DNA of 64,000 bases from contig CAIIXF020000011.1 of NCBI GenBank assembly GCA_903813345.2, positions 9,520,842 to 9,584,841 of the forward strand, read 5' to 3'. The translations under genes and the position numbers were made by a program. Under the pieces are notes generated by a model. That model saw only the letters and a list, made by a program, of their open reading frames with translations. It did not search any database and was not told where the DNA came from. Position 1 is the first letter of the stretch; the number at the start of each line of letters is the position of its first letter. Positions 1,629 to 33,000 of this stretch are shown in pieces. Origin of the DNA: Owenia fusiformis. Lineage: Eukaryota > Annelida > Polychaeta > Sabellida > Oweniidae.

Positions 1629-2300
1629 GGGAAAGGTGAGTGGAAGGGGAAGGGGAAGGAGTGGGGAAAGGGGGAGGGAAAGGGGGAAGGAAAGGGGGAG
1701 GGAAAGGGGGAGGGATGGGGGAGGGATGGGGGAGGGATAGGGGGAGGGAAAGGGGGAGGGATGGGGGGAGGGTAGGGGGAGGGATAGGGGAGGGGAGGGA
1801 TAGGGGAGGGATAGGGGAGGGGAGGTATAGGGGAGGGATAGGGGAGTAGGGAGGGATAGGGGAGGGATAGGGGAGGGAAAGGGGAGGGAAAGGGGGAGGG
1901 ATGGGGGGAGGGTAGGGGGGAGGGATAGGGGAGGGGAGGGATAGGGGAGGGATAGGGGAGGGATAGGGGAGGGATAGGGGAGGGATAGGGGAGGGATAGG
2001 GGAGGGATAGGGGAGGGATAGGGGAGGGATAGGGGAGGGATAGGGGAGGGCTAGGATAGGGAAAGGGGAGGAGGGGGAGGGAAAGGGACAAATTCACAAG
2101 AAAATTTGGAGTCGTAAGAATAAATAGGGGAGGGATAGGGGAGGGATAGGGGAGGGATAGGGGAGGGAAAGGGGAGGGATAGGGGAGGGAAAGGGGAGGG
2201 AAAGGGGATGGATAGGGGAGGGAAAGGGGAGGGATAGGATAGGGAAAGGGGAGGAGGGGGAGGGAAAGGGGAGACGGGGGAGGGAAAGGGACAAATTCAC
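1629..2300 (+). repeat. G-rich satellite (GGGGAGGGATA)n
   Basis: The plus strand is almost pure purine, made of variants of an 11-bp GGGGAGGGATA unit. A second-level duplication places the tail GGGACAAATTCACAAGAAAA at both about 2085 and 2288. Runs of three to four G make G-quadruplexes plausible. The sense RNA of the surrounding midasin gene would carry the C/T-rich complement. Open frames through this block are low-complexity artefacts. Confidence 0.9.
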
Positions 2301-2618
2301 AAGAAAATTTGGAGTCGTAAGAATAAATTCAAGCAATCTTATAGCAATCTTTGTAAGTCGATGGTACCATTATGTTAATAACATCTTTGGTGTAACTATT
2401 TCGATAGTTTTACATATAACTGATGACTGTACTGTAGACAAAAAGAAAACACATAAGAAACTGTATAGTGACCCATATGTTGAAGAAACTGACATGTTTC
2501 AAAGTCAATACAAGATATACATGTATATATAAATAATAATCATCGTGAAGCAGATAACGTTTTACAAGGTGCAAATGCTATGAATCAGGTTGCTTTATGT
2601 CATGAACATTATGACAGA

Positions 2619-2806
2619 ACAGGGGAGGGGAGGGGAGTGGAAGGGAGGGGGAGGGGGAGGGGAGGGGAAGGGAGGGGGGAAGGGAGGGGGAGGGGAAGGG
2701 AGGGGAGGGGAAGGGAGGGGGAGTGGAAGGGAGGGGAAGGGAGGGGGAGAGAGGGGAAGGGAGAGGAAGGGAGGGGAGGGAAGGGAAGGGAGGGGGAGGG
2801 GAAGGA
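2619..2806 (+). repeat. Second G-rich satellite (GGGAGGGGAAG)n
   Basis: This is a second block of the same composition, with GGGGAGGGGAAGGGAGG variants, about 320 bp from the first. It ends about 120 bp downstream (in the gene's sense) of the donor of the last midasin exon in the window. No coding content is credible. Confidence 0.9.
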
Positions 2807-2923
2807 TAATTCTGATGATGCTTTTATTTTTTCCCTTAAATGCAAGGCTGGAGAGTGAATATTCCATTAGTGCTGATAGAGCATAGACTTAGTTGTTTGG
2901 AGGTTTATTGCGAGAGAGTTTAC

Positions 2924-3059
2924 CTGGTCATGGTGTTGTCTCACTGGCCTTAGTCCCCCAATGAAGTCAGCACTCTCTGTGTGGAGATGGCAGTTGACAG
3001 AGTTGAGGATCTGAGAGGATATCTCAGCAAACATCTGACATATTGTGGTCTTGCCACAT
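2924..3059 (-). CDS. MDN1: Midasin exon, codons 1351-1396: AAA4 Walker A end
   Basis: The exon completes the AAA4 P-loop begun in the previous exon (GETG + CGKT) and continues TICQMFAEIS, then SADFIGGLRPVRQ, which is typical midasin text after AAA4 Walker A. The acceptor is TTTTAG at 3060-3065 and the donor GTAAAC starts at 2923. It is the last exon seen. The following intron fills the left 2.9 kb. Confidence 0.95.
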
Positions 3060-6000
3060 CTAAAACATATGAAATGCTGCATCATATAATCGCTCAACTA
3101 AAAGCCATATAATATTCCATATGTCTCCATAGTGTGTTCTTGCCACATCTAAAACATATGAAATGCTGCATCATATAATCGCTCAACTTAAAGCCATATA
3201 ATATTCCATATGTCTCCATAGTGTGGTCTTGCCATATCTAAAACATATGAAAAAATATGAAATTTCAAATTCCCTTCCTTCAAGCAGGCTGTCAGAAAAA
3301 ATACTTCTTTTATTTCATTTATAAATGGCTACTACATGTACACGTTTATAACAAAACTAGACAACAGCAAGCCCAAGGTGTGGCAAATCCTATCAAATGG
3401 CCTTGGCTGTCCTCTTTAAAAAATTGCATCACTATGATTTTAGTAACAGCAAACTTCATAAAACAGCAAAATTGTCAATGAACAGTAAGTAGTCACATAT
3501 CAAATATATACAGAGCTCCTATGTCCCTAGGCATCAGCATGTAAAATTTGAACCAATTCCATTCAATGGTATTTGAGTTATCAAAGATAACGTTTTTTTA
3601 TGAAAAATGGCCACCAATTTGAAATATGGCGGCCATCTTGAAAATGTCTTCATGAGCAAGGCTCCTTTGTATCCAGGCAACAGCATATAAAATTTGATCC
3701 AAATCCATTCAATGGTATTATTATCAAAGATAACGTTTTATTTACGAAAAATGGCCGCCATTTTGAAATATGGTGGCCATCTTGAAAATGTCTTCTTCAG
3801 CAAGGCTCCTTAGTACCCAGGCAACAGCATATAAAATTTGAACAAAATCCATCCACTAGTATTTGAGTAATCAAAGATTATATATTCCGAAAAATGGCCG
3901 CCATTTTTAATTGAGCAGCCATATTGAAAATTCCTTCTCGAGCAGAGGTCCTACACCCATAAGGCATTAGCCTGTAAAATTTGAATGGACGGACGGCTTT
4001 TCTATATCCCCCTCGAACTTCGTTCCGTGGGATAAAAAGCCAAAGTGTCAGAATATAGATTCCTCTAAAGGTGCTTTACATATCGTCACTATCTAGAGAA
4101 AGTAAAATTTTAAAGGTCAAGGTCATTGAATTAGATCACAATCTATTTTATCTAGGTTTTTCAAAGTTCGAAACTACAAATCAATATTCCTCTAATATAA
4201 AGGTTCTTCACATATTAACAATTGAATGTCTTTTAAAATTTTGTGCCCATTTTGAGATATACGACCTCATAAACTGAAAGAGGTCAAATATCTAAATTTT
4301 TCAAGGTCAAATTTCAACTTCTTTTACATTGAACAAATATTTTTTTAAACATCGTCTATGACCTTAGATTTGAGATTTAACCTTATTGTCAAAAACGCCT
4401 ATTGGGCCTCCGTAAGATTGCTTCTAGTTTTTCTCAAATTTTTATTCTTTTCTTGATTTTTGTCATTCAAGTTGCCAAGGTCTTTCTTGGAAAAGTAGGG
4501 TGTATATCTATTTGAGTATGTGCATCTATTAGATATAATATGGTAATTGTTTATATTCATACCCAGTCTCTCCCACCAACAATACAGGTTCGCCAAATTT
4601 CAGTGCTTGTCCTACAAGTGCCGCTAATCTCTTCATGGCACTAGTCCACACAACGTGTTCAAATTCCTTTGCAGTGCCACTTATAAGTTTCTCTAATACA
4701 TTTCCTGTCGTTGTGGAAGTGACATCATACAGCTGCTTGGCATTCACTTTGCATTTGATATGTTTTTCTAGAACCTCCTTGATGATATCTATTTCCTCTG
4801 CTTTGCGAACACGTCCTGCCAGCAACAGATAACCTGAAAGTATTTCAAGAGAATTATTAGTTTTCATAGTATTACTCTATTACAGTACTAGTATATATGA
4901 CAATAGTAATAGCACAAAGGGCTAACACCTGCATTAATGAGACGCAGGTCTCCCTTCGGTTCCAGTGGGTGTTCATGAGGGACTGTTAATGTTATCTGAA
5001 TTATGTCCTCTGTAGAGTGGAACAGAGTGGACTCACTAAATGAAGAAACAGACTATACAATGCCATGGAAATACAAAGGAAAGAAAGACTCAATGTAGCA
5101 TGTCAAATGTAAAACCATTCAATTTTCTACTCAGAAAGCATTTTTAACAAATGTTTTACTGAATAGATATTCCAAAATTTGAGTTGCCCCTAAGCTACAA
5201 TTCCCCATTTGTTTAACATGGGATCTGCCATTTTTGTTTTTCATGAAATTCCTCAATCTGGACATCAAATTTATTTCTCAATCTGGACATCAAATTTTGA
5301 CCTATTGTAATGGAGATATAACATTGAATTTTGCAGACTTTATAGAGAATAGAATAAGATATAGATTTATTTACTTAATCGGGTTTTCCTTTTGTTCCAT
5401 GCTTAGAAGAGTCGTTCAAACAAATATGGGGGTTAACATGTAAACCTATGAGGAAAACCACTGGTCCTTAACTTTTTTGAGGAGTATATATTTCCTAAAA
5501 CAACTGATTATTTGCTATCAGAGTATCAAATATGTGCAATCCAGAGCATACCTTGGTCTGCTAAATACTGGTCCCAGTCAAAGTAGTTGCTATCTACTTT
5601 ATCAGCATGTCTATAGCGCTCTGCCCAGCGGAACAGATCTCGTAATGTGATGAAACCCTGCTTGCCTTTAAACACACTAGAGCTACTTCTACGGGTCTGA
5701 AATAGGGAGGCATACCATGAGCTTAGTACAAAATCAGTTTTCATACAAAACTAGAAAGCAACAACTCCACGGAGTAATAAATCCACTGAACGAACGCTAT
5801 ATATTCATAAATCTGCATATGTCACAATGTAATATTTGAGATATAGTATTATAGTATAATGCAACCATACATAGCGAATTCTTGCTCTTAGCAGCCATTT
5901 TGAATTTTCTGATGCATGGATTGGAAAATCAACACCATAATTGTGATCTACTCTAAAATTCCTTCAATTTGAGTATAATATAGCCATACTTTTAAGAGAT

Positions 6001-9000
6001 CAGAAAATATTGCGAAATCCCACATTAGGCAGCCATTTTGAATTTTTTGAGGCCCGTATCAGAAAAACGCTACAATATTTCCAATCTACTCTAAATTGCC
6101 TTTCATTTGAGTATATTATAAAGCTATACTGCAGAAAAATCTCAAAATTAACGAAAAATCCTGTTTTCCCCAGGACCCCATACACAGCCCCTGGGGGTCA
6201 GGCTAAAAAACACAGAACATGTGTGAAATAAATAGATGTTGGGAATATACTACAAAGATTTCAGACGATAATATTCATTACATGTACTTTGGTTTAAATT
6301 GAAAAACCTAAGATTTTCGATTTTCGCCAAAAGGATAGGTATCGATATGGAGAACTGAATTCAACAATGTTTTTCTCTTAAACCAATCGTTGAAAATATT
6401 CCGTAAAAAAAATGGTATTTTATGTAATGTTGACTGATTGACAACAATTTAATGCGAAAATTATTTAGAAATATTTTATACAAGTGTATAACTGTTTTTG
6501 ATAACATTTTTTGTTTTTTTAGTGCAATTGTTTTTGCTCCTTTCTACCAATTCTTGAGAATGAAATAAAATGTCTTTCCGAACCTTGTTGGAACAAAATA
6601 GCATATACAACATGTTTTTAGACCTCTCAATATTAAAGTTATACAAAGGAATTTTTGGTTGATTTTAAAAAAGTATTCAAAAAATTAAAACAAAATCCCC
6701 CCAAAATAGATAAAAATCAAGAAAAACCTTTTATTTCATTAACAAGATACTTTTCTAAAATCAACCAAAATTACAATATTGAGAGACCTAAACATGTTGT
6801 TTTTATGTCGCTTTGTTCAAATGAGGTTCGGAAAGATGTTTCATTTCACTCTGGAATCATGATACCAAGAACAAAACAAGTGTTTGATGTGTTTTTTAAA
6901 ACAATATAGATGAAAGAATGTATATCTATTTCAAATTATATTGCTACCATTCAAAAGATGGCCATTAAATTGAAAATTTGTAGGATTTCCAGAAATTTTT
7001 GATGACTGGTTTAAGAGAAACGTGTGTTCAAAAAGTTCGCCATATCAATACCCATTCTTTCCTGCCATTTCTAGAGTGGAGGCCATCTTGAAAAAAAATA
7101 AAAATACAGTACATCTTTCCACCCAATATGAAGCAAATCTGTTCACTAGTATTCAAGGTATCTTCCAGATGGACAGACCTATGGAATTTATATTGTATCA
7201 AAATTGGACATAACATGATCTATGGGAAAAATCGAACGCGATACTTGAACTATATGATTCGAAACTCGCATCATACTAAAAATGCGAAATATGCATAATT
7301 ATATGCGAAACTCGCATCATCGTATGCCATTTTCAATCCATGTTATACCAAAAGTTAATTTTCTTACATAACTTGTTTTCATTTACACACGCACTGGTTG
7401 TATCAAGTGTCACACAAAGAGTTAGCACTAACTCCAATCACTTTCCAAAAATCCATAAGCAATGTTGGAATGTCACACAGATTGTGGTATAAGTTGCATA
7501 GAATACTGAAAGAATTACACATGGATCAAAGTAAATTTTGAACGAATGTGTCAATTTTACACACGCATTGAGTTCAAACTCACATAGGATGGTTCCCGCT
7601 CGCATAGGCTGTCAGAAACAAGTTGCACTTCACATAGGGTGGGAGATTTGAAGTCACGTGATATTTACATCCTGGTTTCTACAATATGGCGCCCTCCGTT
7701 TGCCGCACTGATATGTTATTTCGTTCAGTGCAAAAGTAACGCGAGATTTAGAAAAAAATCTTGAACATATCTAGAAAGCAATTTATGTTTCATCAAGGTG
7801 TGTGATCGGTACACCAAGGTGTGTGATCGGCACATCATGGTTTGTGAAGGGAAAAACGTTTGTGCAAGCCGCATAAGCATTTGTTCGACTTGTGTACCCT
7901 GTTCGATGTCATTTTTAAACAATGCATACACAAATACGCATGTACAAGTGTGATTTTACAAACATAGAGTGTGCAAACTCGAACAAACCGTGTATGAAAT
8001 CACACGTATTGTGTATGTATTCTGCTAAATGATATTCTATGTGTCAGAGATATCACATAAATATAAGATGTCAAATTTTGATACAGTTTTAACACCATAC
8101 AGACCAACGGACAGATAGAGGGCATTATATATACATACTATATCCCTTAACCGAACTTCGTTCATTGGGATAATTGCTGCCCTGCAGATTTACATGTACT
8201 TCTATTTTCCTAGAGTTTCTCTAAATATGACTGTTGAAATCAGGGTTTTCACTAGGCTTTAAGACTCTCGCACTCTGCCAAGATCTAAAATGTTCAACCT
8301 TGATACTGCCAGGACCTCATCTGCCATAATCTAAATAATTACATTCGCATACTCTAAATTACCTGGTCTGAAATATTGACAAAGAAAAATATTTTTAATC
8401 ATTGCTTCACTTGTTGTTTTGAGAAAGGATGTTCATTGTGGAATTCTCTCTTAGGTTTTATTTATTGATCTAGATGAATTAAGTATTCTTCTATGAGAAA
8501 ATCTGACATAAAATGAGTAAGGTATCACTGCTTACCTGCAACTCAAGCATGACAGCAACAAGTTTCTTGCAGTAGGAGAGTGGCATCTGACATCTTTGTT
8601 GGAGAATCGTGATTAACTCTTTACTTGGTATGTCATCAAAATGAAGTTCAACAAATCTGTTTCTGAAGGCCCTGGACAGCACCTATGCATTAGTATGTGT
8701 TATATTATTACATACAATAAACCGTAATCGCCGTATTTAGCACCCACCTCTTAATAAGTGCCTACCCACTTCACAAAGTTCAAGAAATATTGAGAAATGA
8801 CCAATACGAGGAATTGCTGCAAGACATTAGAACAACACCCCAGGAGGTCTCTGAATTATTTTCAAGCCTGGATGTTAACAAATCTCATGGCCCGGATGGA
8901 ATAACAAACAAAAAAAATGATCAAATTATGTGGCGATAGTCTGTCTTTTCCAGTTAGTAGACTTTTTAATAGAATTTTTGAAGAAAGTACTTTTCCTGTT

Positions 9001-12000
9001 ATTTGGAAGGAAGGAACAATCATACCGATTTTTAAAAAGGGGGATAAAGGCAATATTTCTAATTATAGACCAGTTACATTACTATGCTCACTCTCCAAAG
9101 TATTAGAAAAAATAATCCACAACAGACTCCTTCTTCATTTACTGGATAATAATCTCTTGTATAAATTTCAAAGTGGTTTTTTACCACAACACGGTGAATC
9201 AACTGATCAACATTGTTCATGATATACAAACTAATGTTGATCAACAGAAAAATGTCCGTTCAATATTTTTAGACCTGATGTCTGCATTTGATTTGGTACC
9301 TCACAAACTCTTAATAAAAAAACTTAAAGCATACGGATGTAGCAATAAAATTATTCTATTAATGACTTTGTATCTTAAAGACAGAAGGGTTAAAGTGCGT
9401 ATTAATAACTGCCTTTCCGATTGGTCCTCTGATCCTGAATTAATTGGTAACAACAACATTTTGGTCAATAATCCTAATAAACCCCAATATATTATAAATG
9501 CCGGTGTTCCCCAAGGTTCTGTTTTGGGTCCCCTACTATTTTTAATATATATTAACGATTTACCTGACAACTTAAACTCCAAAGCTTTCATTTTTGCTGA
9601 TGATACGTCACTTTATGATGCCTATGACAGAAACTCTGACATGCTATTGAATTTAAATCAACCCCTTCAACAAGATTTGAACAATCTTAATCAATGGGCA
9701 ACCACTTGGCGCATGCAATTTAAAGCCCAAAAAAGTGCTGATCTAACCTTTTATGGTCAAAGAACCCAATTAGCAGCTCAACCATCATTAACCTTAGGAA
9801 ATGAGCAAATACCAATGACAGATACCCATAAGCACTTAGGAATAGTGTTAGATAAACACTTAAACTTTAATGCCCACATTGACCAACTGATTAACAAATT
9901 GACAATTTTAATGAGGCTACTGAAGGCTCTTAGTAAAAAGTTATCAAGAAAAACATCTCGAAACAATTTACAATGCTTACTTCATACCCCACTTAGATTA
10001 CTGTGACATAATTTACAATAAAGCATCAGCTCTTAAGCTCCAAGCTCTCGAAAGTCTGCACTATAGAGCAGCCTGCCTAGTTTCAGGTGCTATTCATGGG
10101 TCAAATACTGATAAGGTACTTTCTTCTCTAAATTGGAAAAAGCTGGCATCGAGAAGAGATGAGCACTTAAAAATTTTTATTTTTAAGGCGCGCTTTAATG
10201 CTTTACCTCCCTTCATCTGTGATGTGGTGAGAACTTATGAAATTGTTCACACTAGAAGGCTGAGAGATCAGCCAGATTATCAGATTCCATTACATACTAG
10301 TGTCTCAACTAAAAAATCTACAATTTTTAGTGCCATCTCAGCTTGGAATGGGCTTCCACCAACTATCCGAGTTGGGCAGCCAATCTCAAGATTCAAAAGA
10401 TCAGTCAGGAAGCAAAGGAGCCATGCATCCTTACCCACATCCAAAATGGAGTACACTATGCCAAGACAAACAGAAATTACTTTCAACAGACTTAGAGCTG
10501 GACTCTTGCTTAATAGCCATTTACATGCCCACAATTAATGATCACAAATGTCCATGTGGTGCAGCTCATCAAACCACTTCTCATTTTCTAATCAAAAGTC
10601 CACTGCTCATAAATGAAAGGGAATTGCTTCTTGCAGGACTCGACGAACTGGAATGTCTGCCCGATTTCAGAAATTTAACAACCTCTAAGAAATCAGATAC
10701 ACTTTTGTATGGGGATACCAACCTTAGTGATGTGATGAATAGCAAAATTATTGAAATCGTGGCTCACTATGTCTCAACAGCAATCACAGTTTTAAACAGC
10801 CAGTGAAACATTCTAAAATCCTTTGGGAACCTCATGGGTGGGATGGGGAGCAAGCATATATACAGACTGAACATACTACGTGGTTTTTGTATTGTGTAAA
10901 TTCCTGTGTTATATTTTTAATATTTACTATGCCGATAATGTTATTAAGTTAACAAAGGCATACTTTTGTATTTATATCAATATCAAGGAAATTGAAATAA
11001 ATTGAAAAAATAAAATAAAATAAATACAAGGAATAGTGAATATATGGGATGCAATCTTTCTCAACTTTTACATGACTTATACATGAAAAATGATTAAAAG
11101 ATAAGGTATAACTTATGATATCAAACAGTCACTAGTAGAAATATTGAAAATAATCGGGGGGCTCTGCTGGGGATTTCCTCAATTTCTGTCAATATTGCTT
11201 TATTTAAGCGATCTTTACCGTAATCTCTCCAATATCAATACATATCATTATTGTAAAAATATGCAGTTACTTCAATTTGATGTTGCAAATAAGGCATTCT
11301 TGGAAAGAAAAATTGCCATACATCAAATTCCCGGGGATTTTTGACTTCTTACAGTATATGGGTGGTTATTAGAATGGTCTGAAGGAATACATGAAACTGT
11401 TCCCTGAATCTGTCAGTCATGACCACCTTACCAATGCTTAGCTCAAGCCCTGTTTCTATGTGTGTCTTCACAGAATCCTCACTAAAGCCATATTTCTATT
11501 AAATAAATTCAAAATTTAAAAGAAATTGAAAAATCCTTACCTTTCTCCCACCATATTGCCCTGGTGGATTTTGGGTAGCAAAGAGCATAAATTTTGGGTG
11601 TGCCTTGACAATTTCTTGTGTTTCAGCAATAAATAGTTCCCTGTTGTCATCCAGTAGTCTATTGAGGGCTTCTAGTACATCAGTTGGTGCGAGGTTAAGT
11701 TCATCCAGTATAATCCAATGCCCCTGTCTCATGGCCTCAACCAATGCACCTGTACAGGATACAAAAGAATAAGTTCATCCAGTATAATCAAATGCCCCTG
11801 TCTCATGGCCTCAACCAATGCACCTGTACAGGATACAAAAGAATAAGTTCACCCAGTATAATCCAATGCCCTTGTCTCATGGCCTCAACCAATGCACCTG
11901 TACAGGATACAAAAGAATAAGTTCATACAGTATAATCAAATGCCCCTGCCTCATGGCCTCAACCAATGCACCTGTACAGGATACAAAAGAATAAGTTCAT

Positions 12001-15000
12001 CCAGTATAATCAAATGCCCCTGTCTCATGGCCTCAACCAATGCACCTGTACAGGATACAAAAGAATAAGTTCATCCAGTATAATCAAATGCCCCTGTCTC
12101 ATGGCCTCAACCAATGCACCTGTACAGGATACAAAAGAATAAGTTCATCCAGTATAATCAAATGCCCCTGTCCCATGGCCTCAACCAATGCACCTGTACA
12201 GGATACAAAAGAATAAGTTCACCCAGTATAATCCAATGCCCCTGTCTCATGGCCTCAACCAATGCACCTGTACATGATACAAAAGAATAAGTTCATCCAG
12301 TATAATCCAATGCCCCTGTCTCATGGCCTCAACCAATGCACCTGTACAGGATACAAAAGAATAAGTTCATCCAGTATAATCAAATGCGCCTGTCTCATGG
12401 CCTCGACCAATGCACCTGTACAGGATACAAAAGAATAAGTTCATCCAGTATAATCCAATGCCCCTGTCTCATGGCCTCAACCAATGCACCTGTACATGAT
12501 ACAAAAGAATAAGTTCATCCAGTATAATCAAATGCCCCTGTCTCATGGTCTCGACCAATGCACCTGTACAGGATACAAAAGAATAAGTTTATCCAGTATA
12601 ATCAAATGCCCCTGTCTCATGGCCTCAACCAATGCACCTGTACATGATACAAAAGAATAAGTTCATCCAGTATAATTCAATGCCCCTGTCTCATGGCCTC
12701 GACCAATGCACCTGTACAGGATACAAAAGAATAAGTTCATCCAGTATAATCAAATGCCCCTGTCTCATGGCCTCAACCAATGCACCTGTACAGGATACAA
12801 AAGAATAAGTCCATCCAGTATAATCCAATGCCCCTGTCTCATGGCCTCAACCAATGCACCTGTACAGGATACAAAAGAATAAGTTCATCCAGTATAATCA
12901 AATGCGCCTGTCTCATGGCCTCGACCAATGCACCTGTACAGGATACAAAAGAATAAGTTCATCCAGTATAATCCAATGCCCCTGTCTCATGGCCTCGACC
13001 AATGCACCTGTACAGGATACAAAAGAATAAGTTCATCCAGTATAATCAAATGCGCCTGTCTCATGGCCTCGACCAATGCACCTGTACAGGATGCAAAAGA
13101 ATAAGTTCATCCAGTATAATCAAATGCCCCTGTCTCATGGTCTCGACCAATGCACCTGTACAGGATACAAAAGAATAAGTTCATCCAGTATAATCAAATG
13201 CCCCTGTCTCATGGTCTCGACCAATGCACCTGTACAGGATACAAAAGAATAAGTTTATCCAGTATAATCAAATGCCCCTGTCTCATGGCCTGGACCAATG
13301 CACCTGTACAGGATACAAAAGAATAAGTTTATCCAGTATAATCAAATGCCCCTGTCTCATGGCCTCGACCAATGCACCTGTACAGGATACAAAAGAATAA
13401 GTTATCCAGTATAATCAAATGCCCCCGTCTCATGGCCTCGACCAATGCACCTGTACAGGATACAAAAGAATAAGTTTATCCAGTATAATCAAATGCCCCT
13501 GTCTCATGGCCTCGACAAATGCACCTGTACAGGATACAAAAGAATAAGTCCAATGCGCAAAATAAGTGAATGTGACCATACAAATACATTGAACAATATT
13601 TATAATATTTCGGATAAGAAAATAATCAAGACATTGGAGGATTCTTCTAGGATTTGTTCCAAACAACAAGGGATGATCTGAATGCACTCTCTTACTGTCT
13701 TTTAAATACCATTTTTTCATGAAACTGCGCTGCATGTTAAAGTAACTAGCTAAAAATGTACCTTCTTTGAATACGAGTTTTCCAGTATTGTCAGCTGAGT
13801 AACATCCTATATATTCCTGAAGGTCAGTGTGTTCATGGTTGTTAATGCGTACACACTCATTGCCTGATGATTTAGCAAGCCAAGTGATCAGACTTGTTTT
13901 ACCAACAGATGTCTCTCCCTGTAGTAATACTGGATAGCGACTAAAAACACATTCATAAAAATTAAGATAGAAAGGGAAAATTAACATGTTTTGGCATTAA
14001 TATACAAAATCCATTCAAAGGTTCTGAAAGTATTGTTTATATTTATAAATATTGTTATTCTATAGAAATGACATGGCCATTAAATGTAACATACCCAGCT
14101 GATACAACTCTTGCCAAGTCTCTGAGGTTAGCACGGACAGATGGTGTCAACACATAACCATCAGGTGCTACAGGGTCCTTGTGCCCACTGCTCAGCCAAT
14201 AGCCTTCAAACTGTAGATACTTGCCCTCCAATGGTTGAGGCAGGGCATGTTTCAACATGGACTTTATTTTGGATTTGCCCACTATGTGCTGACAAATCAG
14301 GTTTTCCACAACAGGGTGGGAGCTCCTATCGAGCTGAGTAAGGAAACTTAGGCAGAAGCTCTCATAAAGAGATCTGGAGATGCTCCCTTGCTGGTTGAAG
14401 GAGGCCTGTTTCAAAGCTCTACACAGTGTACGCAAACTGAAAGATGTCACAATATCATCTTTATTTCATTGTAAAGCTCAAAATATGCTTTTGTTGAAAA
14501 TGATATTGCTCAGAGGGGGCACATTTGTAGCTATTTGTTGCTAGTGTATCTTCACGTAGCTCTAAAAAATTACAACATTATATATCTACTATAGAAGGGT
14601 CGGTCAGTTCGATTCGGTTCGGTTCGGTACGATTCTTGGTTCTTGTCTCTCGGTTCGGTCGGTTCTTCAATCATTTACTTAATATGTTTGGCCTCATAAA
14701 TTGCAATTGATGCCACAAATATGGCAACATAAAAAGGTGTTTCACTATTATTTTGTATTATTAGTGGATATAATTTTGTTTTCAATCTTATAAATGATCA
14801 ATATAGAATTGTGATAGCTGATAATCATTGAATATTTATGGAATTAAATAACTATAATTGAACTATTAGTACTTGGCTATCAAAGCCGCTTGCCCTGTAC
14901 TAAATGGGAGGGATTCCTTTTTAAACTGGGTCTGGTTGGGTAAGACCTTTCAATGTGTTTCCTCATAAATTGAAATTATATGGATAGTACAGATGTCCTT

Positions 15001-18000
15001 CATTTGGGAATAACAGTGCAGTGGGCTAGGTGGGGTAGGGGTGTTTACCCATTCTCAACCTGACTTAGGACCTGGGGTAAAACAAAAAATGAAAAAGTTT
15101 ATATATCATCAGTCATAAAATTTTTTACTATGAGTGGGTAATAGAAAGCAGTTACAAGATAGGGAATGAATTGAAGTCTAATAAAGAGTCTAATTTTTAA
15201 AATTAAAAAATTTTACAAAAAGTTTCAATCACAAAAATTGGAAATCTGCAGCGTATGTAATTATTTGCGCAAAAATTGGGATTCGTCTTACACTGCAAAA
15301 AAATAAAGTATTTCCCCCGGAGTGATGGAACCGTTCTGGACTCGGTTCTTGGTGATCAGACGGTCCCAGTAGAACCATGGGGACAAAAACTGCGGTTAAT
15401 CAAACCGAACCGTGACTGACCCTTCTCTAATATCTACTATAATTTAGGAAAATCTGTTTTGATTTTCAACTACAGAGTGTCTCAATAGAAATGCTACAAG
15501 TACAAAATGGCTTTTATTTTTTAATTCTAGCATTTATATGAATTCAGTTCTTAAAGAACAAGCTCTCTCGATTAATTTGACACCAGTAGATTTAAATCCT
15601 TCAATGGTTGACTACACAGGATAGATTTCTTTGACTCAACTGAAATCTGACTTGCAACACCTTCTCAGTGGTTAAAAGGAAAAAAGAGGAAGCACTTCTT
15701 TAACATTTCGCCTCTACATGTCCCTAGAAGCACGTGTGATGAGCTCCCTTTTTTGTCATACCACACTGACTTTATCAATCATTCTTTAATAAGATTCATT
15801 CAGATCAGTTGTTAGTGTTGTGAAGACCTGTCTTTAGGTGGCCCCACAAGAGGAATGGTTTTGAATCTGCTGGTGTCAAATCAAGAGAGAGCTTGCTCTT
15901 CAAGAACTCAAGTATATTTTAGGGTAAACGCCAAAATTTAAAAAAATATTGATATTTTTAAACTTGTAACATTTTTATTGAGCCACCCTGTATAAAGCAT
16001 ACCGTTAATAACATAGATGCGAATAGGAAGTTACCAATTTCACCACCAGATGGCTCGTTCGGGTCAGATAACATGGCGGGTATAGTAGAAAGTTCCCTTT
16101 AACTTAAATTACATCTGTTTTAGTGGTTCAATTTTCGTATAACCCTTATGTATCTAATAGTTATGAAAATTATAATATGTCCAGTAAAGGAAAATGTTAT
16201 CTGTCCAATACAAGAAAAGATATGTCACTTTTTGTGATTTTGTAACATGGGGTCTATGGGGAATCAACCCGAACTAGAAATCACATTTTCAAAACAAATT
16301 AAATTTTCAAAGTTGATAAACAATTTTCTAAACCATATTTCTAGAAGTACTTTTACACGTAGATTTCAAATATGACATCAGTTTGACTGGATTTTGAATA
16401 TTTAATGACGTAAATCAAGATTATTTCTACTCGCACCTAGTCTATTCCATGTAAAGTTTACCTGAAATGAGGTTTATGCCCTGTACCATCTGTCAACTTT
16501 TGTGACGCTTCTTTCCTGATAGCCAAATAAAACTGCACAATGCCATCTATATGTTGTTTTGAGAGTGATAGACTTTTCAAATATTCATTGACCAAGATTT
16601 TCAAATCCTGCACCTCAGTTAGTTCGTCAACAAAGAACTCTGTGAATCTGAAATCAAATACTTATTCGCATCCTTAACTGGTACAGTTTAAAATATAAGT
16701 AAATTTCCTGAGCTTGAAGATAAAGTATTTATGTGGACGAATCTCAAAATAATCCAAACAGGTTCAATCATACTATTTGGTATGACTGGCAATGTTGAAA
16801 CTCTATGTACTTTTCGTACCAATTCCTGAGAATATCAAGAATTCATGATTCCCAATTTTGTGAAAGTAACTCTCAGTGTTGAGTGTCAACTAATCTGTGA
16901 CTCCCACTGGAAGGTTTTTCTTGCCAATATCAATGGCAGGGTTCATACAGGCAAACAGTCTGAAATAACTAACCTGTTCCTGACTCCCAATGGAAGGTTT
17001 TTCTTGCCAATATCAATGGCAGGATTCATACAGGCAAACAGTCTGAAATAACTAACCTGTTCCTGACTCCCAATGGAAGGTCTTTTTTGCCAATATCAAT
17101 GGCAGGGTTCATACAGGCAAACAGTCTGAAATAACTAACCTGTTCCTGACTCCCAATGGAAGGTCTTTTTTGCCAATATCAATGGCAGGGTTCATACAGG
17201 CAAACAGTCTGAAAAAACTAACCTGTTCCTGACTCCCAATGGAAGGTCTTTTTTGCCAATATCAATGGCAGGGTTCATACAGGCAAACAGTCTGAAATAA
17301 CTAACCTGTTCCTGACTCCCAATGGAAGGTCTTTTTTGCCAATATCAATGGCAGGGTTCATACAGGCAAACAGTCTGAAATAACTAACCTGTTCCTGACT
17401 CCCAATGGAAGGTCTTTTTTGCCAATATCAATGGCAGGGTACATACAGGCAAACAGTCTGAAATAACTAACCTGTTCCTGACTCCCAATGGAAGGTCTTT
17501 TTTGCCAATATCAATGGCAGGGTTCATACAGGCAAACAGTCTGAAATAACTAACCTGTTCCTGACTCCCAATGGAAGGTCTTTTTTGCAAATATCAATGG
17601 CAGGGTTCATACAGGCAAACAGTCTGAAATAACTAACCTGTTCCTGACTCCCAATGGAAGGTCTTTTTTGCCAACATCAGTGGCAGGGTTCATACAGGCA
17701 AACAGTCTGAAATCTGGGTGGCGCTCAATAGGTTCTGTGTCCCTAATGATCAGGAAAATAACATTAATAACAAAGCACAGAGCAAACAATATTGTATCCT
17801 TGAGAAGAATATATGATATGAGCTTAATAAGCTGAACTCATCACATAACTAGTAAAACTGCAACTACACATACTAGCATACTTTATCAAATCATTTATCA
17901 TTTTGAACGGTTACAAGACAGGATAGAAACAACCAGGTAGATATTGTATCCAAGGGGTTAATAAAATAGACCAGTCTCTATGACAACCAAACACACATAA

Positions 18001-21000: not shown

Positions 21001-24000
21001 CTTGGGCAGAAATCAATAAATAACCAGAACAACGGCAACGCCAAAGCGTAGCGAATCCCATCGAACAGCCATAGCTGGCATTTTTACAAACAAAGTATAT
21101 AGCAAAAATGGCAGCCATTTTTCAAAATGGTCACCTTCTACCAAAAGTATCATTAGACAGTGTGCGATGCTTATAGTATTCACATACCAAATATGAACAA
21201 AATCACTCCCCTACTTTTCGAGTTATAGTAAAAAACGTTGAAATGGCAGCCATTTTTCAAAATGGCCACCTTCTACCAAAAGTGTCATTAGACAGTGTGC
21301 CATGCTTATAATATTCACATATCAAATATGAACAAAATAGCTCCACTACTTTTCGAGTTATAGTAAAATAAGCTAAAATGGTGGCCATTTTTCAAAATGT
21401 CCGCCATTTTTCAAAATGGCCACCTTCTACCAAAAGTGTCATTAGACAGTGTGCCATGCTTATAGTATTCACATACCAAATATAAACAAAATTGCTCTAC
21501 TACTTTTCGAGTTACAGCAAAAATCTTAAAATAATGAGTAAAGGCCGCCATTTTTCAAGATGGCTGCCATGTGCTTTTTTAATATCTACATTTCTAGCTT
21601 TATTAATGTCCTACATAATTTTTTACATTTAAAACATATTGCTATTACAGTTTTACATATTGCACCTAAATTACTGTAAAATCGGCACTAAAATGGCCAC
21701 CATTTTTAAAAAATGAGCGGCCATTTTGAAAATCGACTTTCGAGCAGAACTTCTACCCCCATATATATATTTTACTCTGACTTGGCGCCATCTTGAATTG
21801 GGTGGGTTAGTGTCCTTGGTCATGTTAGTATTTGTCATGGATGATGGAAGCAATTCAAAGAAATTGAAAGCTTTTTATGAATGCCTATTGTGACATCACA
21901 ACTATTACATATTTGTTACCATGGCAACAAATATAAAAATCATAGAAAACAAACAATGAACATTTTCAAGTGTTACTGACTTTTTAAATTAGAGAAATTC
22001 ACAAAAACGTTATGGTTTCTCTTCAATTTGCCCCGGGTTACGCGATATCGGGTTACTATAGCAACCATAATTTCAACCAATGAAATGATTGAATTCCAAT
22101 CTTTGAGATGGTAACTCAGAAATGTTGTGGGTACATGTATACCAAATTTCATGAAGATCTGATGAATACTTTTGAAATTACAATGTCTTTGACGTTACTT
22201 CTGGATCACCCTGTATGTGTACAAAATATGAACAAAATCAGGCCAACGGTATTTGAGTTATTGCCCGGACGGATGGACGGACGGACGGACGGACGGAGGC
22301 GTTCCCTATATCCCTCCGAACTTCGTTCGATGGGATAATAATAAAGAAGTCACTTGATATAATTTTATATATCTTGCTTGCATAATTCAGTCACACCTAC
22401 TTACCCTCCTAACAAGTCTGTTCTATCACTTTGCTGATTCATATTCACAACCCGCAAGCTTTGACCTGACTGGCTGGCTAGATACTGCACAGTTGACGTC
22501 TTACCAGTACCTGTCTCACCAACTAAAAGAACTGGTTCATTGTTCTCCACGCAGACAGCTATACGCTCAAGAAGGGCAACTGACGGCTGTGTGAAGGCAA
22601 AATTGGTTTTAAGCCTATAAACAAAATAAATTTGAAAGTTACTTTACTACAGTTTAGGAACTAGGGTGGTCCCTGATTGTTCAAGATCATTAAACTAGAA
22701 ACAAACAAAAACTCAATGAATATTTAAGATTTTTTCCAGAGAGACAGTTTCTCTATACAATAGAACCTGCATATCTGAACACCTAGCTAATTAGAACACC
22801 TCCCAATCTGAACACTTTTTTCTGTCCCATTTTTTCCTCCCATTGACTCCCAAATTAAAAATAACTTGAAAAGTGAACATCTCTCAATTTGAACAGTTAA
22901 CAGTCATATTTGAAAAATTAACCTGTCTAATCTGAACACTTTTCATAAAATTTCACATGTTTCATACAAAATTTCTCAAATATTGTTATATCAAAACTTT
23001 GGGGAAAAAACTTGAATGGTCTTGATTATAATTAGGCTTTCCAGCATGACTAGATTCATTTGAATCTTATTTTCAAATTTCATAAAACTATGTGGTCAAA
23101 TGAACTATAAATATGTACAAAGAATATGTTCACATTTTTTCAGAATCCGGAATCTCAAGTATGATTAAACCTCAAAATGTGAATACCTCCTAATCCAAAC
23201 GCTTTAAGCTGGTCCCTTGGCGTTTGGATTAGACAGGTATTATTATCATGAGCTTTATTGTACTTAAATCCCACATTTAGGCAAATTGTACAGCAACGTA
23301 AAACAAGAACACAAATGTGGACAACATGTCCCCACCAATGGGTGATCCTATATACTGCAAATTTTTCATCCTGAATGCCTTACACTAATCAGTTGAAAAG
23401 ACATGATTTTAAGAGAAAAATCCAATGTGGCCGCCTTAAAACTTAGCAAAACTGCCCAAAGACTAAGTAGTTTGAGATTTTCATACAAAGAATCATTCCT
23501 GGAAATTTGAAATCGATCTGTCTACTGGTAACATCCCAGGTAACGTGTAGACAAGACTTTACAGAGAGGATTTCAGGATGGAAAATCCAAAATGGCCACC
23601 TTAAAATTGTAACCCAGAATGCGGAAAAACTATTCAGTTCCTAGATTTTCATACTAAGAACAAGAAAAACAGCAACTCTACGGAGTAGCAAAACCCACCG
23701 AACAAAACATGTTTAATACCCTGCGCGCAGAGTCTAGTTAAACTACACTCTGCCTAGTAGAGACCATATTACAGTTTAGTAGCCCCGCCCCCACGGCGGG
23801 TACCGGTGACAGTTTGGGTGATAAATTACTTCTGACATAAGTGCTGACATTTCTTCCACCAATCAGCGAGCTTGAAGAAACACACGCCAAATGCGTTCTA
23901 ATTAAATATGCGCATGCCATTGAAGGAATGACCATATATAGAACATCGGTCAAATTTGGCCGACGAACACTGATTGGCGCAGTGAGTTCACAGGTTTATT

Positions 24001-27000: not shown

Positions 27001-30000
27001 CTATGTACTTAAGTATTTTGCATTTAATCATGAAATGAACTTCATTTTCTATTTCCCCACAAAAGTTACATAATAGTTCATATTCAGGCTTTGGCCGTGA
27101 TTTCACATGTCTACCCAGTTCTATTTGTAACTTATGTGAACTTAATCTCAGTTGTGAAATTGATTGCCTGTGATTTTTGTTTTGGAAGCTTAAATATTGT
27201 TCCCTTTCTAAAGTTGTTTAAATCAAACATACATGTATGTTCTTAAAACTGGTATAATTGTAAAACTTCCATTTCTCCTTATAATTTTGGTGCAATGTTT
27301 TAGTTAGGTTCTTTATGAACAAATGGTCATCCTCACCTCAAACACTTGTTCATTCCAAGTGCTTTGGAGATTACAATCTTTTAAAATGTTATGAACTTTA
27401 CTTGACTAAGTATTTTTTAATCCTAAACTGTACATTTCATAGTTAGATATGCTTTATAAATAGAGGATATCCTATGATTTATGAGTGATATGATTTTTAT
27501 CCACGAATGGATATGATATCTGCACGAGCGAGCATAGCGAGAAAGTGCAGATATCAATATCCATGAGTGGGTTAAAATCATATCACGAGTAAATCATAGG
27601 ATGTTCTTTATATTCCATAGTTGAAGTCATCATCAGAATCGTCAGAAATTAAGTGATTTAAATCGAATTTTCCAACGATCCGACGATATTGACACTAAGC
27701 CTCGTTTTGAATCTGAAGTAGCAAAAATCCATAATTCATAGCATACGGCGCCGTATGTCATGGCTAAAACACCGTATGCTATGGTTAAGTGAAAATTTGT
27801 CAAAAATATCATATTTTACCACTGATTAAAAACTATGGAATAAAGGAGGTTATCTGGACAAATTTGTATAAGTCGTATCCAATATTTAATGAGATGAATA
27901 TCAAAGCACAAACCAAGGGGAAAACGACCCAGTTCTCATAGACTGCTAGTGTTGCAGTTGATGTTTTCAAACAGAGAATGTTTTTTAAAAAGGACAGGAA
28001 ACAATAGTTTCAAGTGACTTGATATGTTTTTTACTTGACCATATTTCTAAACCATACATTAAAACTGCTTGGACAAGTGAATCGAAGGCAACTGATAAGG
28101 GAATGTCATTAAACTTGTGATACTGTTGCTTTATTTTGAATAAAGCTTTTCTAGATTGTTCTTTAAGATAGCATATTTGTTTATCAAATTACTTTTCCTG
28201 TTGAAAATACACCCTAGATATTTGTAGTCTTTAACACATGGAATCACTTCATCATTGAATTTGAAAGTTTCATCTGGTTTAGAGTTAAAAATAATAGTTT
28301 TTGGTTTAACAGTGTTGACAACAAGATGATAGTTTCGGCAAAAATCAAAGAGATGGTCTAGCGTTGAGTGAACACCAGATTTAGAGCTACCTATAAATAT
28401 TATTTTTGTTCATTAGTTGAGTAATTTTACATTATACATAGCAGTTCTTAAAAAAAATAGACAACAGCAACGCCGAAGCGTAGCAAATCCCATCGAACAG
28501 CCATGGCTGGTATTATTACAAACAAAGTATATAGCAAAAATAGCAGCCATTTTTCAAAATGGCCACTTTCTACCAAAAGTGTCATTAGATAGTGTGCCAT
28601 GCTTATAGTATTCACATACCAAATATGAACAAAATCGATCCACTACTTTTCCAGTTATAGTAAAATACGTTAAAATTGTGGCCATTTTTCAAAATGGCAG
28701 CCTTCTACCAAAAGTGTCATTAGACAGTGTCATGCTTATGGTATTCACATACTAAATATGAACAAAATCGCTACACTACTTTTCCAGTTATAGTAAAATA
28801 CGTTAAAATGGTGGCCATTTTTCAAAATGGCCGCCTTTTACCAAAAGTGTCATTAGACAGTGTGCCAGTAGTCACATACCAAATATGAACAAAATCACTA
28901 CACTACTTTTCGAGTTATAGCAAAATACGTTAAAACGGAACAATTTGGATTCATGTGATAAAGGATGAATTGTCTAGGGGATGAATTGTCTAGGGGATAA
29001 GTTGTCCAGGGGATGACTTGTCTAGGGGATGAGTTGTCCAGGGGATGAGTTGTCCAGTTACCCTTGAGTTATCAAAGATTATGTTTTTTCTGAAAAATGG
29101 CAGCCATTTTGAAATTCAGCCGCCATCTTGAAAATTCTTTCTCTAACATAAGCTACTGTTTAAACATCATCATATTTTGAGCCAAATCCGTTCATTGGTA
29201 TTTGTGTTATCAACGATTACGTTTTTTACGAAAAATGGCAGCCATTTTGAAATTCAGCCTCCATATTGAGATATTTTTTCTCTAACAGAGCTACTGTGTA
29301 CCTAGGCATCATCATATAAAATCTGCACCAAATCCATTCACTGGTATTTGAGTTATCATAGATTACATTTTTTATGAAAAATGGCCGCCATTTTGAAATT
29401 CAGCCTCCATCTTGAAAATTCTTTCTCTAACAGAGCTACTGTGTCCCAAGGCATCATCATATAAATTCAGAACCAAATCCATTCACTGGTATTTGAGTTA
29501 TCATAAATTACGTTTTTTATGAAAAATGGCCGCCATTTTAAAATTTCCTATATCTCCCTCGAACTTCGTTTGGTGGATAATCATAGTTTCTGTGTGTTTA
29601 CCTCTTTAAGTTCACCCCTAGACATTGGTTCCACATTGATTAGTGACCACATCCTCTCTAGCATGGTAGAGTTACTGTTCTGCAGTGTATACAAGCCACT
29701 TATCCCAGTCAGTAGCCTAGAGAGAAAAGAATATAGAATCTACAGGGTGTTTCATAAGGACGTCCCCAAGTCAATCACCAGTCCTAAGTAGCATACCCCC
29801 TATTTTATATATCATATGAAAGCTTGGTAAATTCTGGACTTATAAGAACAACTTTGATTAAGCTCAATAGTTTTTACATTTTGCTACATATCTCTACAAA
29901 AGGTACCCATTTTACCTTTAGCATAGAATCGGAAAGCCACATTTTTTCCAAAATTAGTCATATGCCCTGCCCTGAATTGAATAAGCTTTAGCTGTGATAA

Positions 30001-33000
30001 CCATGCCTCAATAGACTGTTAGCTATAGTATAAATAAATGAACTTATAAATAAATGAACTTATAATATTTGATCGATGCTGAGGATATATCTTAATGATA
30101 TTTGAAAGACAAAAGTATTAAATATTTCAAAGTAATGCCCCTAAGAGTGCACTAGTGACTACCAAACATAAGTTCATATATTATGTTCCTGAAAACCAGG
30201 CATGCTAATATTTGGCACATAAGTCCAGAATTGAATAAGCTTTATTACGGAATATAACCATCAATACCATCATAAATGTATTCTACCTCTGAGTGGCAAA
30301 CAGTTGGAAGCCAGGGGCAGCTTTTACAGAGTCCCCATGGCCAGGTATAGACAGAGTGTTAGACTGCAGCAGTGGCACTAGAGTGGAAATAACATCCATA
30401 GGGGCATAGTCAATGTCCTCTAGCAGGATCCAACGTCCCTCCATCACAGCTTGAGTTAATGTACCTGGTTGCCATAGAAACTCCCCTGGGATGTCTGTAC
30501 AGCGGTATGTTCCAAGTAATGCCTGCAAGGAAAATATGGCATGACAATGTTCAGACAAGAGGAGGGTATGTTATTGGAGAGGCTCTTATCAATTACAAAT
30601 ATCACTTAAACTCTTAAGATTCTAAACACTTCACTGAGTATAGTAAATAATACATGTACACATTAGGCGTCCAATGATACATGCTTAACTAAACATCAAA
30701 ATACACTTAAATTATTCCAAAATATTTCAAGGAGCCTCTGGATCACAGGTAATTACTTTGCTATCAGTTTGATCTCCAAGCTGCACTTTTATGAGATGAG
30801 GTGTCTTCATTCTTCCTGTCAGGGCAGCCAAGTGCTCAACTAGTGCAGTCTTCCCTGAGCCAACAGGTCCCTGGAGTAGAACAGGCGACCCCACGGCAAC
30901 AGCAAGAGACAAGCTGCGCAAATTCCTTTGTGTTGAATCTACAGGTATTAGAAATTTACTGTTGTCAACTTCCTGAAAATACATTTACACATCATTTTAA
31001 TATTCATATATTAAGGCAGAATTATAACATAATATAAACAAAGTATAAACTTCCAATTGAAATGCATAAAGGCTCAAATGGGTAAAATGGAGAAAGTATG
31101 GAGTGACACTATTTGATTCAGTAAATTCCACAGTGATCATCATTTCCACTTTTCTAATCCACTTTAATTTCATATGGTTCGTTTTTGTTATCAATGAAAC
31201 ATTTAGAGCATGCACAGCAGTGGGTTATGCCGTCATTTAGGGTACATTCACCAATGAGACATTTAGAGCATGCACAGCAGTGTGTTATGCAGTCATTTGG
31301 GGTACATTCACCAATGAGACATTTAGAGCATGCACAGCAGTTTGTTATAGAGTCATTTGGGGTATATTCACCAATGAGATATTTAGAGCATGCATAGCAG
31401 TGTGTTATACAGTCATTTGGGGTATATATTCACCAATGAGATATTTAGAGCATGCATAGCAGTGTGTTATACAGTCATTTCGGGTATATATTCACCAATG
31501 AGATATTTAGAGCATGCATAGCAGTGTATTATGCAGTCATTTGGGGTACATTCATCAATGAGACATTTAGAGCATGCACAGCAGTGTGTTATGCAGTCAT
31601 TTGGGGTACATTCATCAATGAGACGTTTAGAGCATGCACAGCAGTGTGTTATGCAGTCATTTGGGGTATATATTTACCAATGAGATATTTAGAGCATGCA
31701 TAGCAGTGTGTTATACAGTCATTTGGGGTACATTCATCAATGAGACATTTAGAGCATGCACAGCAGTGTGTTATGCAGTCATTTGGGGTACATTCATCAG
31801 TGAGACGTTTAGAGCATGCACAGCAGTGTGTTATGCAGTCATTTGGAGTATATATTTACCAATGAGATATTTAGAGCATGCATAGCAGTGTGTTATACAG
31901 TCATTTGGGGTACATTCATCAATGAGACGTTTAGAGCATGCACAGCAGTGTGTTATACAGTCATTTGGGGTACATTCATCAATGAGACGTTTAGAGCATG
32001 CACAGCAGTGTGTTATGCAGTCATTTGGGGTACATTCATCAATGAGACATTTAGAGCATGCACAGCAGTGTGTTATGCAGTCATTTGGGGTACATTCATC
32101 AATGAGACGTTTAGAGCATGCACAGCAGTGTGTTATGCAGTCATTTGGGGTATATATTTACCAATGAGATATTTAGAGCATGCATAGCAGTGTGTTATAC
32201 AGTCATTTGGGGTACACTCATCAATGAGACATTTAGAGCATGCACAGCAGTGTGTTATACAGTCATTTGGGGTATATATTCACCAATGAGATATTTAGAC
32301 CATGCATAGCAGTGTGTTATACAGTCATTTGGGGTACATTCATCAATGAGACATTTAGAGCATGCACAGCAGTGTGTTATACAGTCATTTGGGGTACATT
32401 CATCAATGAGACATTTAGAGCATGCACAGCAGTGTGTTATACAGTCATTTGGGGTACATTCACCAATGAGACATTTAGAGGATGCATAGCAGTGTATTAT
32501 GCAGTCATTTGGGGTACATTTACCAACACTCATGTACACCATTCTTAAATCTACATATCTACATCAGATTGATCAATTTGCAGCATACATAAAGGAAATG
32601 AAAACAAAATATCCAACCTGTTTGGAGTCACTCTGTATGTTATTTATAAGTATTCCACACACGGCAACTACATCTTCAGTGAGGTCACGCTCTACAAGGT
32701 GGCCCATAGTATGTGACACATTCTCATCCAGTCTCTCTTCACTCTTGTCACCATATATCTGAACATGACCAGCTGCAATCTTTTGCAGTTCTACATTGTG
32801 CCTAAAGTTACAATTACATTAAATCCTCTTAATATGAACACCTCTATAATCCAAACACCTCTCAAACTCTGAAGTGTGAACACTTGCTAAACATGTTTTC
32901 TGAAATTTGTTACCAATATGTTTAAATATGCTTTATGGAAATAATTGACTTTAAACAAAAGTAACTTTCTAGATTACTAAAGCTTAATATCTTCCATTCC

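Follow-up and report, generated by a model that had tools for sequence, protein, structure and literature searches.

How does a transcript arrive at the correct 3′ splice site when the intron in front of it holds 24 near-identical copies of that site? The question is raised by MDN1, the midasin gene, in a 64,000-nt stretch of the genome of the annelid Owenia fusiformis (assembly GCA_903813345.2, contig CAIIXF020000011.1, positions 9,520,842 to 9,584,841 of the forward strand; hereafter "the window", numbered from its first letter). In particular, a unit comprising an intron end, its AG acceptor, and the start of the exon that encodes the Walker B motif of the midasin AAA3 domain is repeated in tandem 25 times on the minus strand, with the AG intact in every copy. 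The array is real, and arrays of the same anatomy lie across acceptor and donor edges of other exons. We propose, with a probability of about 0.8, that the array is a minisatellite that arose by chance across an intron–exon boundary (a "mirage") and that it is neutral, as only the copy joined to the exon is used.

Anatomy of the 74-bp array in MDN1

Tandem Repeats Finder (TRF) places the array on the minus strand at window positions 11696–13549 (period 74 bp, 25.1 copies, 96% matches, score 3386). Splitting the minus strand into units yields 25 copies in head-to-tail order, with 23 of the 24 spacings being 74 bp and one being 73 bp, in agreement with the approximately 25 copies counted in a preliminary description of the locus. 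Each unit comprises ~20 nt of the end of an MDN1 intron, including the AG, and ~54 nt of the AAA3 Walker-B exon; the intron end, AG, and exon start named in the preliminary description are all present, and its division into 21 + 53 nt departs from ours at a junction base that is ambiguous. The motif TGTACAG|GTGCA is present in 25/25 units. The 24 decoy copies have a mean identity of 96.7% to the genuine copy, and the copies differ by substitutions. A search of the whole genome (498 Mb in 525 contigs; repeat counts from such searches are lower bounds) with one 74-bp unit returned at least 25 matches, all at the MDN1 array.

The genuine MDN1 exon (ALVEAMRQGHWIILDELNLAP...; 11541–11749, minus strand, identified by homology and exon calls) begins at 11749, and the exon upstream of it, called at 13762–13940, encodes the AAA3 Walker A motif and ends in the donor AAG|GTACAT. 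The peptide of the two exons matches the AAA3 Walker B region of a solved midasin, which we take to be the yeast protein, with an E value of 2.4e-39 for that stretch, which bears out the earlier proposal that the repeated part encodes the Walker B core of an essential ATPase. The genuine acceptor, at 11750|11749, is the last copy met by the transcript, as had been proposed; it must be the last copy because only that copy is joined to the remainder of the exon. The intron that hosts the array (11750–13761, from exon calls) is 2012 nt long, and would be 212 nt long without it. Unit splitting and the splice-site motif locate the 24 decoy acceptors within 11823–13524, with the first pseudo-exon bases, in the order of transcription, at 13524, 13450, 13377, 13303, 13229, 13155, 13081, 13007, 12933, 12859, 12785, 12711, 12637, 12563, 12489, 12415, 12341, 12267, 12193, 12119, 12045, 11971, 11897, and 11823.

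We scored the acceptors with a splice-site matrix trained on accepted exons from the same genome (322 donors, 324 acceptors). The AG is kept in 24/24 decoys. With a score of 6.0, the genuine acceptor lies between the 10th percentile (5.38) and the median (9.10) of accepted acceptors; 23 of the 24 decoys score the same, and the remaining one scores 4.6. Judged by motif, the decoys thus look functional. A possible branch point, CTTAT, has its A positioned 21 nt upstream of the exon in the three copies inspected, including the genuine one, and TTCTTTTG is present in 25/25 units, so that the sequence appears to contradict the earlier suggestion of a branch point confined to the surroundings of the left-most copy.

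Use of an earlier copy would shift the reading frame, as the preliminary description had it. Specifically, 74 leaves a remainder of two on division by three, and a stop codon in the genuine phase follows every decoy (24/24), in 21 cases at a distance of 92 nt and in the other three at 32, 107, and 119 nt. In 18/24 decoys, the tryptophan codon of the peptide GHWIILDE is TTG or TGA instead of TGG, as expected if the decoys are not translated.

Sixteen arrays across exon edges in 29 gene regions

MDN1 holds three boundary-spanning arrays, with units of 74 bp, 83 bp, and 89 bp, all on the minus strand of the window. The 83-bp array (16898–17713, 9.8 copies, TRF) is on the donor side and repeats an exon 3′ end together with CAG|GTTAGT; the genuine exon, which belongs to the AAA2 region (HPDFRLFACMNPATDVGKK...; 17638–17742, from homology and exon calls), has as its own donor the first copy in the transcript. 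The 89-bp array (3039–3252, 2.4 copies, TRF) is on the acceptor side, repeats TTTTAG|ATGTGGCAAGACC, and supplies two decoys to an exon called at 2924–3059, which begins at 3059 and carries a Walker A motif (CGKTTICQM).

To extend the analysis beyond MDN1, we sampled 28 dynein and myosin regions of ~9 kb each, picked by gene family and not at random: 16 dynein loci from about 18 places (grouped matches to Pfam AAA_6) and 12 myosin loci from about 19 places, giving 29 regions with MDN1. Exons were called by script and accepted with paralogue support or a coding score of at least 8, those of MDN1 and a few others being curated by hand; the final set comprises 332 exons (198 dynein, 118 myosin, and 16 MDN1). 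The dynein and MDN1 sets were also inspected by BLAST for paired copies.

The 28 regions contain 13 further boundary-spanning arrays, on both exon sides (L019, L026, L031, and L044, two each; L023, L025, L036, L037, and L045, one each). The total with MDN1 is 16 arrays, 8 on the acceptor side and 8 on the donor side, and the implication of the preliminary description that the array is special to the Walker-B exon is not supported. In either kind of array, the copy closest to the exon body is the genuine one (the last copy in acceptor-side arrays and the first copy in donor-side arrays). The extent of the exon included in the unit can be small (4 nt in L037), and the boundary in the second L019 array (L019-b) lies at 3760 of that locus. 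One two-copy array, L031-b, was found by BLAST and not by TRF, and was kept for its 93.8% identity over 145 nt; here the predictor called both copies exons, and the second was taken as genuine by hand. Older two-copy remnants, in which the boundary copy has decayed, the match is short, or the evidence comes from BLAST alone, were excluded from the 16 (L025 256–451, 2917–3051, and 7074–7254; L026 1930–2104; L028 3182–3308; L033 6020–6336). Set against the 632 edges that the 316 accepted dynein and myosin exons have, the 12 TRF arrays and 1 BLAST-found pair mean that ~2% of sampled exon edges are embedded in tandem, intact copies of their own splice site.

The decoys of the set are intact. Across 15 arrays (L031-a excluded), 0/87 aligned decoys have a broken AG or GT, and 83/87 exceed the 10th percentile for this genome (329 donors and 332 acceptors); L031-a adds ten decoys, all with the AG intact and seven of them weak. 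Because the decoy signals are intact and mostly above the 10th percentile, the choice of site is not explained by motif loss. A naive count gives 0 broken decoys versus 7.0 expected. When varying columns are counted in 14 arrays, selection on the decoy AG/GT columns is not significant (P = 0.081), and we therefore make no claim of selection for or against the decoys. Most arrays look young.

The frequency of edge-crossing arrays is near that given by random placement. From 85 arrays, we dropped 12 dispersed arrays, 4 low-complexity arrays, one array inside an exon, and three arrays with units longer than 200 bp (including L044-b) before counting. A first count found 8/40 arrays crossing an exon edge versus 6.0 expected (p = 0.22). 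In the final count, 10/56 arrays cross an edge without MDN1 versus 7.3 expected (p = 0.17), and 13/65 cross with MDN1 versus 7.9 expected (p = 0.041), the latter being biased, since MDN1 entered the sample on account of the finding itself. The edge in L026-b (7759–7871), predicted but unsupported by any paralogue, was included by hand (9/56 when it is left out), and the counting script missed L031-a, because the TRF call stops 5 nt before the exon (11/56 when it is included). Unaccepted exons make the expected number of crossings too low, and MDN1 is the most affected. Special targeting of tandem duplication to splice sites is not supported by these counts, and, because the edge-crossing share is near that of random placement, no targeting is needed.

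Origin and tolerance of the arrays

The observations are consistent with the following course of events. A random tandem duplication would sometimes cross an exon edge, copying an intron end, an acceptor, and an exon start; unequal exchange or slippage may then have amplified the duplicated boundary to 25 copies. Such crossing duplications would survive as one full boundary stays beside the exon, and only the copy joined to the remaining exon would be used, with the other 24 remaining in the intron and being spliced out with it. The likely rule of tolerance is exon definition, in which the closest pair of sites across the exon is preferred. We infer that the array is neutral, that MDN1 is spliced correctly, and that exon definition is the cause.

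Arrays of this kind have a precedent in amphioxus. The mirages of amphioxus Adh3 and globin genes are minisatellites spanning intron–exon boundaries, with either boundary duplicated and AG/GT in many copies (PMC3087553); PGBD5 was added to them later, with TnC cited (PMC3902484). The Owenia arrays are likewise tandem and boundary-spanning, on either side of exons, and with AG/GT in many copies. In particular, the 74-bp array consists of head-to-tail copies of a boundary-spanning unit, includes the genuine copy, and has AG/GT in 25/25 copies, and the set as a whole affects both 5′ and 3′ exon edges (8 acceptor-side and 8 donor-side arrays). Amphioxus units range from 10 to ~160 bp (PMC3087553, PMC3902484), and the copy number of BflGb6 differs between haplotypes, 6 and 3, as against up to 25 copies and three arrays in one gene in an annelid. 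RT-PCR (reverse transcription–PCR) suggests that regular splicing is undisturbed by the Adh3 and globin mirages (PMC3087553). Under that name, mirages were reported only from cephalochordates in the literature that we searched, and no paper on such arrays in Owenia was found among publications judged by title or by the start of the abstract. Boundary-spanning minisatellites are thus known from amphioxus; what is new here is the phylum, together with the copy number and frequency. Mirages are thereby carried into another phylum, and the Owenia genome offers a natural experiment in spliceosomal choice among identical sites, in acceptor and donor versions and with 2 to 25 copies.

The preference for the closest site pair also has experimental support, from transfected cells: minigenes that offered two identical donors, with flanking introns of 365 nt, were spliced exclusively at the exon-proximal one (PMC9225289). 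Several observations weigh against our reading. In the human data of the same study, before site strength was controlled for, every architecture class showed a preference for the downstream donor (PMC9225289). Measured to the nearest accepted exon, the host introns are now 325 nt to 2.4 kb long (15/15 measurable cases), and 6/15 would be shorter than 250 nt once the arrays are removed; across the exon set, 82/303 gaps between neighbouring accepted exons are shorter than 250 nt. Introns of less than 250 nt fall in the range usually assigned to intron definition, under which the wrong copy would be favoured upon the first duplication. Exon definition fits the present state well and the first duplication less well. 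In addition, arrays with at least 4 copies cross exon edges in excess (7/23 versus 3.1 expected, p = 0.025; myosin set alone, 4/11 versus 1.35 expected, p = 0.033), arrays with at least 7 copies nearly do (5/13 versus 2.2 expected, p = 0.052), and arrays with fewer than 4 copies do not (3/33 versus 4.1 expected). This excess is unpredicted by pure random placement; the copy-number cuts (at least 4, at least 7 pooled, and fewer than 4) were picked after the data were seen, and the pre-stated test (at least 7 copies, myosin set) gave 2/5 versus 0.81 expected (p = 0.18).

Could the array instead act as a switch, in which use of decoys yields poison isoforms whose premature stops lower MDN1 through nonsense-mediated decay (NMD), with array length tuning the dose? 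The preliminary description had raised such poison isoforms, and a stop of the kind that defines a poison exon and NMD target does follow decoy use in 24/24 cases in the 74-bp array, always within 119 nt, and in reads from the nearest aligned decoy in 13/16 arrays overall. However, inserts are not kept off multiples of three (3/16 arrays); decoy use in L019-b would insert an open, in-frame KLKLGESPFG, and in L031-a and L037 the frame is shifted and no stop occurs within the stretch read. Moreover, the arrays occur in unrelated genes, on both exon sides, and at near-random frequency, and, as noted above, the decoy AG/GT columns show no significant excess of conservation over other columns. A role for the set in making poison isoforms is not borne out, and we regard such a switch in MDN1 as improbable. 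Quite improbable, in our estimate, is a self-correcting mechanism, in which splicing to a decoy would rebuild a plausible donor, AAG|GTGCAT, almost the same as the genuine AAG|GTACAT, so that recursive steps would lead copy by copy to the last acceptor. All 25 copies carry CAG|GTGCA, an acceptor and a donor side by side (AG|GT), and CAG|GTGCAT, a form distinct from the rebuilt AAG|GTGCAT, has a donor score of 6.9, where the genuine donor reaches 7.7 and the 10th percentile stands at 5.54. The correct junction, however, rebuilds the same donor, and the exon starts with GT in only 3/8 acceptor-side arrays; since 5/8 are without it, such recursion is not a general rule and is at most an extra in the 74-bp array. 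Recursive splice (ratchet) sites of Drosophila have AG|GT side by side; by contrast, the MDN1 copies are in tandem, are known as sequence only, and lie in a host intron of just 2.0 kb, and their donor half, GTGCAT, at 6.9, scores below the donor median of 8.34. If recursion did operate, arrays with a GT exon start could tolerate far more copies than others.

A model put forward for amphioxus globins, in which such an array is on the way to intron gain or to a new exon (PMC3087553), is very unlikely to apply here. The units do carry AG|GT, as does the duplicated segment of AGGT tandem-duplication intron gain in, for example, potato RdRp (PMC4974935), but the Owenia array duplicates an existing boundary inside one pre-existing intron, and no new intron is seen; in addition, the decoys are frame-shifted, and most have lost the tryptophan codon. 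Internal tandem repeats of human segmental duplications are likewise minisatellites at exon–intron boundaries with cryptic splice sites, and differ in that they are described as altering exons or creating novel introns, with alternative transcripts for many of them (PMC2812944). Least probable of all is an artefact of collapse or expansion in assembly. A single assembly was used, and the 25 matches fall at a single place; against this, the copies carry distinct substitutions, the 1.85-kb array lies inside a 37.3-Mb contig, and the same pattern is present in many genes. An origin as a chance minisatellite across the boundary, tolerated as only the exon-joined copy is used, remains our preferred reading.

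Other repeats and gene features

Further tandem repeats occur near the genes analysed. In L030, an 89-bp array of 14.1 copies (1817–3069) begins 17 nt past an exon end, and lies beside the splice site and not across it. In the MDN1 region, a 60-bp array of 22 copies (window 31190–32526) has a 182-bp higher-order period (7.3 copies), is open in frame on both strands for 100+ codons, and touches no called exon. A dispersed tandem family with ATGGCNGCCATTTT cores is found at window positions 3515–3985, 21101–21421, and 28546–29545, and also in L029 and L041. Plus-strand open reading frames (ORFs) at window positions 8905–10806, antisense to MDN1, resemble the reverse transcriptase of a non-LTR (non-long-terminal-repeat) element, containing FADDTSLY, which we take to be a reverse transcriptase motif.

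Repeated exons of other kinds were found in the same gene families. At C9:37986009–37994334, about 12 consecutive matches to one stretch of the myosin head (model positions ~18–84) may be a large alternative-exon cluster of a myosin heavy chain gene. One dynein AAA1 exon is present in three copies in L021 (2069–2294, 3272–3522, and 6590–6880), and one in two copies in L027 (2463–2573 and 3719–3824), with 70–79% DNA identity in the two loci; these copies are candidates for mutually exclusive exons.

Two nearly identical intronless creatine kinase ORFs, of mitochondrial type as judged by eye, lie on contigs 10 and 1 (L001 and L002), the latter adjoined by a truncated third copy, and are probably retrocopies. 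The Hox genes of contig 1 form an ordered cluster that contains a Lox5-like gene (KLTGP) and two genes with UbdA-type peptides, presumably Lox4 and Lox2, and has Post2 at its end, and Post1 lies on this contig as well, at a distance of about 38 Mb; the Lox5, Post2, and Post1 identities are likewise presumed from motifs. This set of Hox genes points to a lophotrochozoan. Amphioxus was rejected as the source of the genome on these genes and on the absence of matches to a lancelet fluorescent protein and to the GFP family, in searches run with no positive control. A search for COX1 gave no match. The published Owenia fusiformis genome measures 505.8 Mb in 12 chromosome-scale scaffolds, and its annotation drew on RNA-seq; of its 11 Hox genes, all but Post1 form a cluster on chromosome 1, and Post1 is found downstream along the same chromosome (PMC9977687). 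In the contig 1 cluster, two homeodomain matches 351 bp apart (C1:17970454–17970981) occupy the Post2 end.

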